NCBI RefSeq assembly: GCF_000211475.1 | Contig: NC_015474.1 | Location: 1,178,001 to 1,242,000, forward strand | Source of the DNA: Pyrococcus sp. NA2 | Lineage (GTDB): Archaea > Methanobacteriota_B > Thermococci > Thermococcales > Thermococcaceae | DNA: 64,000 bases | Direction: 5' to 3' | In this document: piece by piece, positions 47,339-57,484 of the stretch | How the letters are laid out: the number at the start of each line of letters is the position of its first letter | Numbering within the stretch: the stretch's first letter is position 1 | Translations under genes and position numbers: made by a program | Notes under the pieces: model-generated | What the model saw: only the letters and a program-made list of their open reading frames with translations | The model's database searches: none | What the model was told of the DNA's origin: nothing

Positions 47339-48994
47339 TCATTCCCGAAAAACGGCCCCAGTGTATGCAGATGTTACCAAGCTGGAGTATCTCTTAAGGT
47401 ATCCCCTTACGTCTTTGACTTTTGGTTTCCATTTTGCCCTTCTTCTCTTTAATTCTTCCTCATCAACGAGTAAATCTATTCTTTTCGCCTCAATATCTAT
47501 CCTTATTATGTCACCATCTTCAACTAGAGCTATGGGTCCTCCTTCTGCAGCCTCTGGTGAGACGTGACCAATTGAAAGCCCCCTAGTTGCTCCTGAAAAC
47601 CTTCCATCTGTTACAAGGGCGACATCTCTATCTAGCCCCATCCCTACTATTGCCGATGTTGGTGCTAGCATCTCTCTCATTCCAGGACCTCCTTTAGGAC
47701 CCTCGTATCTTATAACGACGACATCTCCTTTCTCAATTTTTCCGTTGAGTATTGCATCTACGGCATCTTCCTCGCTGTCAAATACCTTTGCAGTCCCTTC
47801 GAATATCTTTATTTCTGGAATTGCTGATACCTTTAATACAGCTCCAGCCGGTGCTAGGCTACCATAAAGGATCATTATTCCTCCCCGTTTAAGATAGGGA
47901 TTGGTGACTGGCCTTATGACGTCCTCTCTGATAATTTTAGCTTCTTTAAGTAGTTCTCCCACCGTTTTTAGGCTAACTGTTATTCTTTCTTCATGTATTA
48001 AGTTGAGTTCACTTAGCCTCTTCATAACTCCCAGCACTCCACCGGCCTCGTATAGGTCAATCACAAAATGTTTTCCTGCTGGGCTTATTTTGACCAAGGT
48101 AGGAGTCTTTTCGCTGATCTCATCAAAGGTGTCTAAAGTGAGTTTCACTCCAGCCTCCTTTGCAATGGCCATTAGATGTAGTATTGTGTTAGTTGAACCC
48201 CCAAGTGCCATGTCCACAGCTATGGCATCTTCAAATGCCTCTAAGGTTAGGATATCGCTAGGCTTAATGTTCTCCTCAACAAGCTTCATAATCTGCATTC
48301 CTGTTTGCTTTGCTATTCTAATTCTGTGAGCATAAACGGCTGGGGCTGTTCCATTCCATGGTAATGACACTCCCAATGCCTCACTCAGGGCATTCATTGT
48401 GTTTGCTGTGAACATACCTGCACAGCTTCCGCATCCTGGACATGCAAAATCTTCGAGCATTTTAAGCTCTTCGTGACTCATCTTTCCAGCTTTTACAGCA
48501 CCGACTGCTTCAAACACGGTTTTAACGTCAACGTACTCTCCTTTGAACCTTCCTGGAAGCATGGGACCTCCCGAAATGAATATTGCAGGTATGTCTAGCC
48601 TGGCCATGGCCATTAGCATCCCTGGGATTATCTTATCGCACGATGCTATCATGACCATGCCATCAAAGTTATACGCCTCTGCTACAGTTTCAATTGAGTC
48701 CGCTATTAGTTCTCTTGATGGGAGAGAGTATCTCATTCCTTTATGGCCCATTGCTATTCCGTCGCATATTCCTATTGTGGAAAATTCTAGGGGAGTCCCT
48801 CCAGCCATTCTTATGCCAGCTTTAACAGCTTCAGCTATCCTTCTTAAGTGTATATGCCCTGGAATTAGCTCATTGAAAGAATTTGCAATTCCAATTAATG
48901 GTCTGTCTATCTCCTCATCAGTGAGCCCCATGGCCTTAAAGAGTGAACGGTGAGGGGCCCTTTCTATCCCCCTCTTTACAATATCACTTCTCAT
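47339..48994 (-). CDS. ilvD: dihydroxy-acid dehydratase
   Basis: Dehydrates dihydroxy-isovalerate and -methylvalerate to the 2-oxoacids of valine and isoleucine. Iron-sulfur cysteines are in ASCDKIIPG and [17 protein letters not shown]. Substrate motifs [13 protein letters not shown] and [17 protein letters not shown] are intact, as are [20 protein letters not shown] and the C-terminus. 551 residues. Last gene of the operon; its ATG overlaps the end of the citramalate synthase gene by 4 bp. Confidence 0.97.
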
Positions 48995-53374: not shown

Positions 53375-53707
53375 TCACCTCATCAGGGCGTTAAGATAGG
53401 CCTCCGCACTCGCCTCGAGAATATTTGTGCTTAGACCTCTTCCGACGGAGATCTTTCCTCCAACTTCAACCCTTACGAGAACTTCACCTAAAGCATCTTT
53501 ACCGGAACCGACTGAGGAGACACGGTACTCAAGAAGCTTTGCCTTAATTCCAAGGGCGCTGTTTATAGCTGAAAAAATGGCGTCTATTGGTTCATTCTTT
53601 GACCATGCAACTTTTGCTATTTCGACCTTCTCGTTGACGGTTAAACTCACCCCGGGAGTCTGCTCTCCGTCCCTGAGTGTTGTATCAAACACCTTGATAT
53701 TTCTCAT
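53375..53707 (-). pseudogene. leuA: internally deleted 2-isopropylmalate synthase
   Basis: Only 110 codons (normal about 500). Residues 1-32 are the LeuA N-terminus ([20 protein letters not shown]), and from residue about 33 the sequence jumps in frame to the C-terminal allosteric domain ([20 protein letters not shown] to [16 protein letters not shown]). The whole TIM barrel with catalytic residues is missing, about 1.15 kb. The junction reads [10 protein letters not shown], so the deletion may have used short homology around it. Start, GGGGTGG site and stop are normal. The product cannot catalyse the LeuA reaction. Confidence 0.9.
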
Positions 53708-53736: not shown

Positions 53737-54726
53737 TTAGTCCTCAAGTCCCGACATTTTCCTAATGAACTTTCCAGTTCTCTCGATTTCATGTTCCTCT
53801 ATGGGCTTCATAAGCTCCTTAAGAACTTCCTTCGCTCTCTCTGCTTTAGATATCCATTCCCTTGCGAATTCGCCATTTCTAACTCTTTCTGCTGCCTTTT
53901 TCATGTTCTCCTTGACATGCTCGTCTATGACTTTAGGTCCAACGGTTAATCCCCCGTACTTTGCAGTGTCAGACACTGCCTTGAGCATTCCAGTGAAACC
54001 TCTCTCATAAATTAGATCCATTATGAGCTTGGCTTCGTTACAGGCTTCGAAGTATGCTAATTCAGGGGGATAACCAAGCTCTACAAGGACTTCAAATCCT
54101 TTCTTAATCAACTCAATTAATCCACCTACGAGAACAATTTGTTCACCAATTAGATCACTTTCGGTCTCGTCTTTAAATGTAGTTTCGATGACACCTGCTC
54201 TTGTGCATCCTATGGCCTTGGCCATCGCTAGAGCTAGTTCTTTTGCCTTTCCACTATAATCCTGATACACAGCTATCAAGGCTGGAACACCAAAGCCTTC
54301 AAGGTATTTTTCTCTAACTCTCTTCCCTGGACTCTTAGGGGCAACCATGATAACGTCCACGTATTCTGGAGGGACTATCTGTTTGTAATGAACGTTAAAG
54401 CCATGGGAGAATCCTAAGGCTTGGCCTTCTCTGAGGTAGGGCTCTATTTTTTCCCTGTAAACTTTCGGTTGAACGAGGTCTGGTATTAGGATATGCACAA
54501 TGTCGGCTCTTTTGACTGCATCTTCTATAGTATAAACCTCGAAGCCATCTTTTTCAGCCCTCTTCCAAGAGTTTCCTCCTGGTCTGAGTCCGAGAATTAC
54601 ATGCACTCCTGAGTCTCTCATGTTTTTTGCCTGGGCTTCTCCCTGGTTGCCATACCCAATAATGGCAACCGTCTTGTCTTTCAGTACTTCCATACTAACA
54701 TCCTTATCGTAGTACACCTTCACCAT
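53737..54726 (-). CDS. ilvC: ketol-acid reductoisomerase
   Basis: 329-residue class I KARI from ATG 54726 (GAGGTGG upstream). Rossmann motif [20 protein letters not shown] (near residue 25); catalytic [14 protein letters not shown] and [16 protein letters not shown] with the Mg-binding Asp/Glu. Converts acetolactate and acetohydroxybutyrate to the dihydroxy acids. Lies 10 bp after ilvB. Confidence 0.96.
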
Positions 54727-54736
54727 TTCCACCACC

Positions 54737-56431
54737 TCAGTAGCGGGTCACAACTTTCGAGATATGTTCACCAGGTGGAACCATTGGCAGAACGTCATCT
54801 TCGGGATGAATTGGAACATCAATAACAGTGGGCACTTCAGACTTCATCCCCTCTTTAACGGCTTTGATGAGTTCATCCATAGTTTCGGCCCTGAATCCTT
54901 GAGCTCCATAAACCTCTGCAAGCTTTGCAAAATCAGGATTCTTCTTGTAGTACGTTGCAATATAGCGCCTATTGTAGAACATTCTCTGCCATTGAGCTAC
55001 CATCCCCAAAGAGGAGTTGTTAAAAATGACAACAATTACGGGAATGTCCTCATTAACGGCTGTTGCAAGTTCTCTTTCCGACATCATGAAGCTTCCGTCA
55101 CCAGCGATGTCAATAACGATTCTCTCAGGTTTTGCAACTTTTGCTCCAATTGCCGCTGGGAATCCGAACCCCATTGTTCCAAGGCCACCCGAAGTTAGGA
55201 ATGTTCTTGGCTTTAGGATTGGAAAGTATAGGGCAACCCACATCTGATTTTGACCGACTTCGGTTGCAACTATTGTGTCTGGTGGTAGAATCTTTCTCAA
55301 CTCTTTGAGAATTTCTGGAGGCCTCAAATAGTTGCCGTCTATTGGTACGAGCTCTTCTCTATATTTTTCTTTGAATTCCTTAACTTTTTGAAGCCATGGC
55401 CAGCTTTCCCTTTTCCTTACTCTCCTTTTAATTTCTTCATATATTGACCTGAGAACTCTCTTTGCATCTCCAATTATTCCAAGGTCAACCTTCACATTCT
55501 TGCCAACTTCCCTGGGATCTATGTCAATGTGTATTATCTTAGCATCAGGAGCAAAGTTTTCAAATTCGCTAACGGTTCTATCACTCCACCTCATTCCAAC
55601 GGCTATTATTAGGTCTGTCTCTGGAAGTAGTTTATTGGCGGCTATTCTGCCGTGCATTCCTAAGTTACCTACGTACAATGGATGATTTTCTGGAACTGCT
55701 CCCTTTCCCATGAACGTTGCCATGATTGGTATCAATAGATACTCAGCTATCGCGAGAACCTCATCCGTTGCTCCCGACCAAATGACACCCCCGCCGACTA
55801 TGAATACTGGTCTTTCGGCAGATAGTATCATATCAACGGCTTTCTTGACTTCTTCAGGACAAGCATCGAGTTTTGGAGGCTTCCAGGGATTTATTTCTTG
55901 AGAGATGTCTACGTCAAATTCAACTTCTCCTTCTCCAGTTTGAACATCTTTTGGGAAGTCTAGCAGAGTTGGTCCAGGTCTTCCAAGCATTGCAATTGTA
56001 AATGCCTTTTTAACTGCCTTTGGGACTTCTTCAGGTTTTCTTATCTGATAATTCCATTTTGTTATTGGCTTGGTTATGTTTATTATGTCCGTCTCTTGGA
56101 ATGCCATTTTGCCGATCATGTATGTAGGCACTTGTCCCGTTATAGCCACGATTGGAGAAGAGTCCATATAGGCCGTTGCAATACCGGTGACAAGGTTGGT
56201 TGCCCCAGGGCCTGAGGTAGTTATCGCAACACCAGGCTTTCCAGAGACTCTTGCATATCCATCTGCTGCATGTGCAGCACTCTGTTCATGCCTCGTTGTT
56301 ATATGCCTTATATTGCTATCCAGGAGCTCATCGAATACTGGCATTATACTTCCACCTATTATGCCAAACATGTGCTTTACTCCTTCCCTCTCCAGCGCCT
56401 TTACGAGGGCCCTTGCACCCGACATGGACAT
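54737..56431 (-). CDS. ilvB: acetolactate synthase large subunit
   Basis: 564 residues from ATG 56431 ([21 protein letters not shown] upstream). TPP-dependent: [15 protein letters not shown] with [17 protein letters not shown], Mg/TPP motif [18 protein letters not shown] and [14 protein letters not shown]/central domain intact. No small regulatory subunit gene (ilvH) is next to it. A longer frame exists from TTG 56497 but lacks conserved sequence. First structural gene of the operon, behind the leader ORF. Confidence 0.95.
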
Positions 56432-56493
56432 GGAAACACCCCCAAGAAAGTTTTGAAGACCAAAAAGACGGTTAAAATGAATTGTGAGCGTGA

Positions 56494-56583
56494 TCAAGCC
56501 CTAATAATAATTATAATGATGACTAGGATGACAATAAGAAGAGTCTGTAAGATTGTTCTTGGATGGAGGTTTAGGGTGTTCAT
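56494..56583 (-). CDS. ilv leader peptide (candidate attenuator), 29 residues
   Basis: ATG at 56583, TGA at 56496-56494. The peptide begins MNTLNLHPRT, and residues 15-27 (LLIVILVIIIIII) are all branched-chain: 9 Ile, 6 Leu and 2 Val in 29 residues overall. It lies 63 bp before ilvB (ATG 56431) and only about 13 nt after the start site predicted from the TATA box at 56615-56629. Between it and ilvB is a T/C-rich stretch (about 56440-56480). Its composition and position match bacterial ilv leader peptides, whose translation senses charged Ile/Val/Leu tRNAs. An archaeal attenuation mechanism is inference. Confidence 0.7.
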   Translation of the reverse strand: MNTLNLHPRTILQTLLIVILVIIIIIIRA

Positions 56584-56629: not shown

Positions 56630-56745
56630 CGCTAATTTTGTTGAATTTTTGACAAATTGATAAATATTCTAAAAGCTAGAAAAATCTAGAAAAATCATGA
56701 AAATTTTAAATACATGAGGTTATTTCAAACAAGGTGACAAAGGTA

Positions 56746-57129
56746 TTAGTATCTGGCCATCATGTTTCTCAAAGCTATGTCAAGTATTAGATCATCGCTA
56801 ACCATGTCGATGATCGTGTAGAGTTCCGTTTTTGCCTCTCTTTCGTTCTTATCTTCAACTTTCACTATCCTATCATCGTTTGAGAGTACCCATTTCACTA
56901 TCAGGGCTTTCTTGTTCTTCTCTCCTTGAATTTCTAATAGAGCTACTCCATACGCTACTGCCCCCCACCAGTTGGCCTTAAAGCTGACTTTCCAGCCTTC
57001 CTTAGCTAGAGCTTTCTCAAGTTCTTGAATTAGGCTTGTTGGTCCGGATTTAGTTTTTGCTGTTATGCTTACCCATTTTCTTCCGTTCTCCACGGTTCTG
57101 ATCACATCCTTCAAGCCTTCAACGCCCAT
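56746..57129 (-). CDS. conserved protein of unknown function
   Basis: 127 residues from ATG 57129 (MGVEGLKDVIRTVENG; AGGTGG upstream). An alpha/beta protein: KWVSITAKTKSGPTSLIQEL, then WWGAVAYGVALLEIQG and LILDIALRNMMARY at the end. Length and strand pattern suggest a compact single domain. No family recognised. Own transcription unit between ilv and XPD. Confidence 0.6.
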   Translation of the reverse strand: MGVEGLKDVIRTVENGRKWVSITAKTKSGPTSLIQELEKALAKEGWKVSFKANWWGAVAYGVALLEIQGEKNKKALIVKWVLSNDDRIVKVEDKNEREAKTELYTIIDMVSDDLILDIALRNMMARY

Positions 57130-57144
57130 ACAGACCACCTCCAA

Positions 57145-57484
57145 GGGAGTTCAACAACAAAAGGAAAAAGCACAAGGAAGAGCATGATACAAACTTAAAT
57201 GCTTGAAAATGTCTTCAAGCTATAATGATAATGAGAATAATAAGAATAGTAACAACTATGTTGTTAAGGATGTTAGCATGAGACTGTGAAAGGTTGAGCT
57301 TATTGTTATTCAGCATCATTGCAGAGGAAAGGTGCATTTAATGTATATAAATTTTTTGACCTATATTTGGATGATCATACAAAAATTTAAGGACATGTAA
57401 TGACAGCGTTGGGGATGTGTATTGTCTCTTGTTCATCTCCCCAATTGATTTAAATTTGAGAAAGGTTAGAATTTTAAGGAGGTT
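57145..57484. other. 340-bp intergenic region before XPD
   Basis: Contains a TATA-like AAACTTAAATGC (57191-57202) shared by both directions, a tiny ORF (57225-57281), the stronger TATA-like ATGTATATAAATT near 57340-57352, and AAGGAGGTTG before XPD. No gene of normal size. No stable hairpins seen. Confidence 0.5.
57225..57281 (+). CDS. 18-residue leader-like ORF
   Basis: ATG at 57225, TGA at 57279-57281. The peptide MIMRIIRIVTTMLLRMLA is rich in Ile, Leu and Met, and lies about 25-30 bp after a TATA-like element at 57191-57202, so it may be leaderless. No amino acid gene follows on the plus strand; the next gene is XPD, 204 bp on. It may be chance or a relic. Confidence 0.3.
   Translation: MIMRIIRIVTTMLLRMLA

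Follow-up and report, generated by a model that had tools for sequence, protein, structure and literature searches.

We analysed a 64,000-nucleotide stretch of Pyrococcus sp. NA2 DNA (hereafter, the window). An ilv operon lies on its minus strand. Within this, ilvB (positions 54737 to 56431; Pfam TPP_enzyme_N/M/C), for the acetolactate synthase large subunit, is followed by ilvC (53737 to 54735; Pfam KARI_N/KARI_C), for ketol-acid reductoisomerase. The remainder of the operon, between positions 47339 and 53378 of the same strand, comprises leuC-, leuD-, leuB-, isopropylmalate/citramalate synthase- and ilvD-like genes; these names rest on ORF translations and gene order rather than a family search. 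Note that an in-frame ORF of 110 aa is found between ilvC and leuC (53375-53707, minus strand). This resembles the N- and C-termini of 2-isopropylmalate synthase (leuA), fused, with the middle deleted.

A 29-codon ORF, here called leader 2, precedes ilvB on the minus strand (56583-56494). It encodes MNTLNLHPRTILQTLLIVILVIIIIIIRA, then TGA. Residues 15-27 are 13 consecutive Ile, Leu or Val (I/L/V) residues, and 17 of all 29 residues are I/L/V; translation confirmed these counts, first given in a sequence-only reading of the region, as exact. The plus strand yielded no sensible ORF between 56494 and 56583; the feature belongs to the minus strand. A spacer of 62 nt (56432-56493, minus strand; CATTTTAACCGTCTTTTTGGTCTTCAAAACTTTCTT) separates leader 2 from the ilvB ATG at 56431. 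The spacer is U/C-rich (Y = 0.70) and G-poor (G = 0.08), has a GGGGGTG ribosome-binding site at its 3' end, and is our proposed termination zone. Further upstream, at about 56632-56617 on the minus strand, is a BRE/TATA-like element (GCGAAAATTTATTATA) conserved in alignment A1. From this we predict a start site at ~56596, ~13 nt 5' of the leader 2 ATG. Leader 2 would hence lie almost at the mRNA 5' end, as previously supposed. Directly upstream of the promoter element, a palindrome (TTGTCAAAAATTCAACAA; 56638-56655, minus strand) is conserved in four aligned genus-mates. This candidate site suggests additional transcription factor action.

The locus contains a second I/L/V ORF, absent from the sequence-only reading. 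This ORF, leader 1, is encoded by the minus strand between 57215 and 57319, or 57337 if an extra in-frame ATG is used, and reads MMLNNNKLNLSQSHANILNNIVVTILIILIIIIA before a TGA stop. The ATG at 57337 probably lies upstream of the transcription start site. In the leader 1 spacer (57130-57214, minus strand), folding places a GCTTGAA/TTCAAGC hairpin at the stop codon (local z = -2.85), followed by a U/C-rich tract; the best 40 nt are 82% pyrimidine. Nowhere else in the window does a short ORF have 10 or more I/L/V among its final 14 residues. Between the leaders is orf127 (56746-57129, minus strand; start ATG at 57129), which encodes a conserved 127-aa protein that may act as an ilv regulator or as an enzyme partner. 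A paralogue occurs elsewhere in nearly every genome searched, including genomes without ilvB. There were no matches to orf127 in Pfam, NCBIfam or the PDB, and an AlphaFold model built without an alignment (pLDDT 45) was too poor for use.

Among 94 Thermococcaceae genomes, seven encode ilvB. One of these has an ilvB fragment, without upstream sequence, and was excluded; the other six were compared. In all six, orf127 is upstream of ilvB and leader 1 precedes orf127. Leader 2 precedes ilvB in five (its counterparts are in G004, G005, G008 and G021), bringing the total to 11 leader ORFs, with two at each of five loci. In the sixth genome, G068, the gap between orf127 and ilvB is only about 40 nt, and both genes share leader 1. 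In G021, leader 2 begins right behind the orf127 stop codon and has no promoter of its own. The tails of leader 2 are LIVILVIIIIIIRA, LLLILIIIGLIILL, LVLLSIIIGLIILL, ILILLVIIIIIILI and GVSAIAVIIGIIIL; those of leader 1 are IVVTILIILIIIIA, IIKLLVIILVLLIL, LLLISIVIIIVIIL, IIRLLVIILILLIL, LLLILLLLILVLII and LLLIAIDIILIIIL. Every leader stops at TGA, 46-89 nt from the next start codon, and the N-termini and lengths (29-52 aa) diverge widely. Hence, across 11 leader ORFs and six species, the I/L/V frame is kept and the exact bases are not, which is the pattern of conservation that the sequence-only reading had proposed to look for.

Across the 11 leaders, I/L/V account for 137 of the 154 residues that make up the final 14 positions; Phe is absent. 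The other reading frames of the tails give mixed residues and stops. When each region was shuffled, preserving dinucleotides, the observed I/L/V density was never reached for 10 of the leaders (for leader 2 of the window, 0 of 1000 shuffles) and P = 0.001 for the last. Note that a run of I/L/V codons before a stop is not evidence alone; a genome search with this pattern gave 16 matches, four of which are at the ilvB locus (two in G004, one each in G005 and G068), and the total was no higher than for a reversed-pattern control. As is characteristic of ribosome-mediated attenuation, the short ORFs precede a biosynthetic operon and are enriched in codons for its end products, and their frame and control codons are kept while the remaining sequence has diverged. 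Both leader ORFs of the locus are under selection at the codon level. The ORF at 56494-56583 is thus, very probably, a regulatory leader peptide.

Searches of Thermococcaceae upstream of trpC for W-rich leaders, and upstream of hisG for H-rich ones, found none. In genomes of a sister order (L161, L164, L176, L177, L159 and L166), a short ORF ending SIILSCTAHHH lies just before hisG, with tail variants HHQ and YHHN. A small hairpin (ACGCC/GGCGG) then covers the ribosome-binding site. This ORF is a possible histidine leader, for which the close relationship of the sister-order sequences makes the support weak.

The sequence-only reading also likened leader 2 to the ilv leader of E. coli. While the leader-ORF principle stands, a conserved terminator/antiterminator hairpin does not. 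Folding found no hairpin common to the 11 Thermococcales leaders. Terminator-like hairpins occur at two (0.97 expected), which is not clearly above expectation, and we rejected an E. coli-type attenuator with mutually exclusive hairpins. Folding of the whole spacer is ordinary (z between -1.2 and +1.2) for 10 leaders of the 11. Hairpins at the stop codon are confined to single loci: leader 1 of the window and leader 2 of both G008 and G021. Rfam covariance models had no credible match, either between 56300 and 57500 or at eight Archaeoglobi loci. Instead, 10 of the 11 leaders are followed by a U/C-rich spacer containing runs of 4-7 U; the exception is G021 leader 2, where the spacer is not U-rich. 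Such pyrimidine richness is moderately unusual, with Y at or above 0.70 in 4% of intergenic 50-mers. The richest U/C stretch begins 6-32 nt beyond the leader stop, so all but its first part would lie beyond the cover of a stalled ribosome. Since a conserved hairpin pair is lacking, we prefer to view the T-rich stretch before ilvB as a zone of termination that depends on a factor (FttA) or on U tracts.

We also sought leaders at ilvB loci of other archaea. A leader was counted if an ATG-initiated ORF ended 12-130 nt before ilvB and held six or more I/L/V within ten residues. In Archaeoglobi, such an ORF was present at 46 of 50 loci (shuffle expectation 2.8). Raising the threshold to seven left 39 (0.7 expected). 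The Thermoplasmata order of G119 has leaders at all 21 loci with either threshold (expectations of 1.0 and 0.1 respectively). For the Thaumarchaeota class of G118, the equivalent figures are 17 of 30 loci (2.9 expected) and 15 (0.9 expected). Note that genomes inside each set are related, so the leader loci counted are not independent events. Between lineages, the leader sequences are unrelated: examples are MSATLELNNFGVVLGVVLIVVVVLLL, MQTMLNLPVVVVC, a leader ending SAGQGGLVPILVVLGVLVDLRILRP, and MSERMSASPSSVALIVLLIVV. Leaders also precede ilvB in a DHVE2 archaeon (L015; MENQKNPERELTNALFAGHLLLSVLVILLIIIVQ) and an uncultured archaeon (L020). The latter leader ends VLVVPLLVLLL, and its stop is followed directly by GCGGCC-loop-GGCCGC-TTTTTT. 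No leaders were seen before ilvB of Bathyarchaeota, Methanosarcinales-type, Methanofastidiosales-like and most bacterial loci; hence, the archaeal distribution is patchy. At one Archaeoglobi locus (L262), a tail reading VPVVVLF before the stop is kept 12-80 nt before ilvB, in a frame without ATG. This may be a decayed leader, use of another start codon, or an assembly error.

RNA structure accompanies some of these leaders. In the G118 class, a terminator-like hairpin and U run come after 4 of the 17 leaders (0.07 expected), with the leader stop codon inside the 5' arm (GTGCTGTAA...TACAGCGCATTTTT). In Archaeoglobi, terminator-like hairpins follow 6 of 46 leader stops (0.77 expected). The Thermoplasmata leaders have a hairpin over the stop codon, with no U run behind, that is paired in 97% of cells; ten cells are changed on both sides, which none of 500 shuffles matched. 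Five Archaeoglobi loci share a 12-bp helix inside the leader, with its 3' arm in the I/L/V tail. All cells are paired and two pairs covary, with modest shuffle support (29/500). In Archaeoglobi, structure emerged when two leader groups were aligned separately; a joint alignment (A3) gave none. We also observed, in some leaders of the Archaeoglobi set L218-L234, an internal hairpin (e.g. ATGGCTACCGGC with GCCGGTAGCCGT) with its 3' arm in the I/L/V tail and compensatory changes among species. Leader-internal hairpins of L300, L301 and L303 (GGTCTACTTGTAGTAGACC, GGTCTACTTCAAGTAGACC and CCTACTTGATGTAGG) keep their pairing despite base changes.

Considered together, the leaders and their spacers make ribosome-mediated attenuation of the ilv operon likely, with an FttA/U-tract termination zone in the U/C-rich spacer as the proposed switch. 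For the parts of this reading, our confidence differs. That the leader peptide acts through transcription termination is moderately well favoured. Naming FttA as the termination factor is tentative. For Thermococcales, an FttA-type termination zone rich in U and C is a more probable switch than a conserved hairpin. FttA binds U-rich RNA, which optimally trails the 3' end of the transcript by about 30-36 nt (PMC11616081); U/C-rich spacers fit this factor. The leader tail itself is also U-rich and pyrimidine-rich, because its codons prefer pyrimidine endings.

We infer, from the arrangement of these elements, how leader translation, stalling and premature termination might be connected, and the sign of the response. 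The ribosome would initiate on the leader within a few nt of the mRNA 5' end, then enter an uninterrupted run of Ile, Leu and Val codons right before the stop. With ample charged Ile-, Leu- and Val-tRNA, the ribosome would complete the leader and be released at the TGA, leaving the U/C-rich spacer bare. FttA (aCPSF1), aided by the U tracts, would then end transcription before ilvB. If charged Ile-, Leu- or Val-tRNA were scarce, the ribosome would stall in the tail and shield both the spacer and Spt5/RNA polymerase from FttA. Mutually exclusive binding of the ribosome and FttA to Spt5 is a hypothesis in PMC11616081 and PMC8116511. With FttA shielded, transcription would continue into ilvB-ilvC-leu-ilvD. 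Leader 1 would control orf127 and, in some species, everything downstream too. In the sequence-only reading, a run of Ile codons would sense Ile-tRNA. The control tail is instead a mixture of Ile, Leu and Val, so would sense all three amino acids, not Ile alone. Where a hairpin and U run overlap the leader stop, as at some loci of the Thaumarchaeota class, a stalled ribosome would cover the 5' arm; this would be a simpler version of the same device.

The main rival retains the leader peptide but places control at translation initiation. By stalling, the ribosome would open structure that otherwise masks the G-rich site for ribosome binding at ilvB or orf127, much as for erm-type leaders. In keeping with this, the U/C-rich spacer shows partial complementarity to the G-rich Shine-Dalgarno sequence (GGGGGTGG, GGAGGTGG), which predicted folds often include. 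Leader 2 of G021, directly behind orf127 and promoterless, and the covarying Thermoplasmata hairpin, with no U run, also agree with such control. However, the pairings predicted are unconserved and, for a hyperthermophile, weak; the tracts also contain much U in addition to C. We consider this explanation unlikely.

Other explanations dispense with a regulatory leader. One is that the ORF product is a functional small membrane protein, with a single transmembrane helix, co-expressed with the operon. Indeed, a hydrophobic run of 13-20 residues could span a membrane. The composition, restricted to I/L/V, lacking Phe and almost free of Ala and Gly, is nonetheless unlike membrane segments. By comparison, I/L/V make up 53% and Phe 6.8% of the hydrophobic 14-mers taken from ordinary proteins in the window; of 239 such 14-mers, not one contains as many as 11 I/L/V. 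The unconserved N-termini and lengths, the two copies per locus, and unrelated I/L/V-biased sequences at the same place in other archaea also argue against a membrane protein, which we regard as very improbable. Equally improbable is selection on the RNA, for a long pyrimidine-rich tract, binding a protein or FttA, that reads as I/L/V by chance. The tail codons do end in pyrimidine: ATT/ATC, CTT/CTC and GTC are favoured, and ATA accounts for 14%, against 56% in genes of the window (chi-square p about 1e-11). However, of 154 codons, 100 start with A or G and 137 have T in second place, and both first and third positions vary. Furthermore, Archaeoglobi leaders use GTA-rich Val codons instead. 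The three-base rhythm, in frame with ATG and TGA in 11 of 11 leaders, points to translation. Finally, a conventional DNA-binding regulator at TTGTCAAAAATTCAACAA, with the leader ORF incidental, would account for the palindrome being kept upstream of the TATA box in genus-mates, but leaves the I/L/V frame, its second copy, and the promoterless G021 leader 2 unexplained, so is highly unlikely as a sole explanation, though such a regulator and leader control may coexist.

Returning to attenuation by a stalled ribosome, similar I/L/V ORFs before ilv genes in many archaea suggest that archaea probably sense amino-acid shortage in this way. On balance, we lean slightly towards leader-peptide attenuation of the ilv operon being a widespread archaeal mode, arisen or maintained in several phyla, and coupled to different switches. 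These would be FttA/U-tract zones in Thermococcales and covarying hairpins in Thermoplasmata, with the Thaumarchaeota class and part of the Archaeoglobi using hairpins that overlap the stop codon and carry U runs; this assignment we favour to the same small degree. If attenuation does occur, archaea read tRNA charging directly at a biosynthetic operon. The leader would also make it possible to test, in a natural setting open to genetics, whether FttA is kept out by a ribosome coupled to Spt5/RNA polymerase (PMC11616081, PMC8116511). Were the mode widespread, archaeal coupling of ribosome and RNA polymerase would be tight enough for codon-level control of transcription. For annotation, short I/L/V-rich ORFs before archaeal ilvB should be treated as regulatory features, not noise.

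In bacteria, attenuation through translation of a leader peptide is textbook knowledge, and ilvL, ivbL and leuL of E. coli are ilv/leu examples. Like these, the archaeal leaders are short ORFs, rich in Ile, Val and Leu codons, at the mRNA 5' end right before an ilv operon; the sequence changes fast and the control residues are conserved. The archaeal leaders differ in host and promoter, and their control run is immediately before the stop. Furthermore, Thermococcales have two leaders per locus and no conserved terminator/antiterminator pair. No sequence relationship to the E. coli leaders is shown. Leader-peptide attenuation can also depend on Rho, tnaC being an example. As there, a ribosome halted at the leader end would protect a downstream, unstructured, pyrimidine-rich region for factor loading, but the proposed factor here is FttA (aCPSF1). 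This is analogous, not homologous, to Rho (PMC11616081). Internal and U-tract termination by aCPSF1/FttA similarly involves U-rich RNA and regulated read-through between genes, but without a leader peptide or amino-acid sensing (PMC8716108, PMC10450193); the words 'attenuation' and 'leader' are absent from PMC10450193. In the literature searched, which did not extend to subscription papers or preprints, we found no description of archaeal leader-peptide attenuation, so the claim that the mechanism is undescribed for the Thermococcales ilv operon held to that extent. The closest report speculates on transcription attenuation in Pyrococcus abyssi mRNA leaders, from 5'UTR-derived ncRNAs (PMC3124441). 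These RNAs share with our leaders possible attenuation within a Pyrococcus mRNA leader, but are riboswitch-like and beside other genes, and ilv, leader peptides and isoleucine are unmentioned. What would be new here is the bacterial attenuation principle at work in archaea, with Thermococcales using a terminator of another kind.
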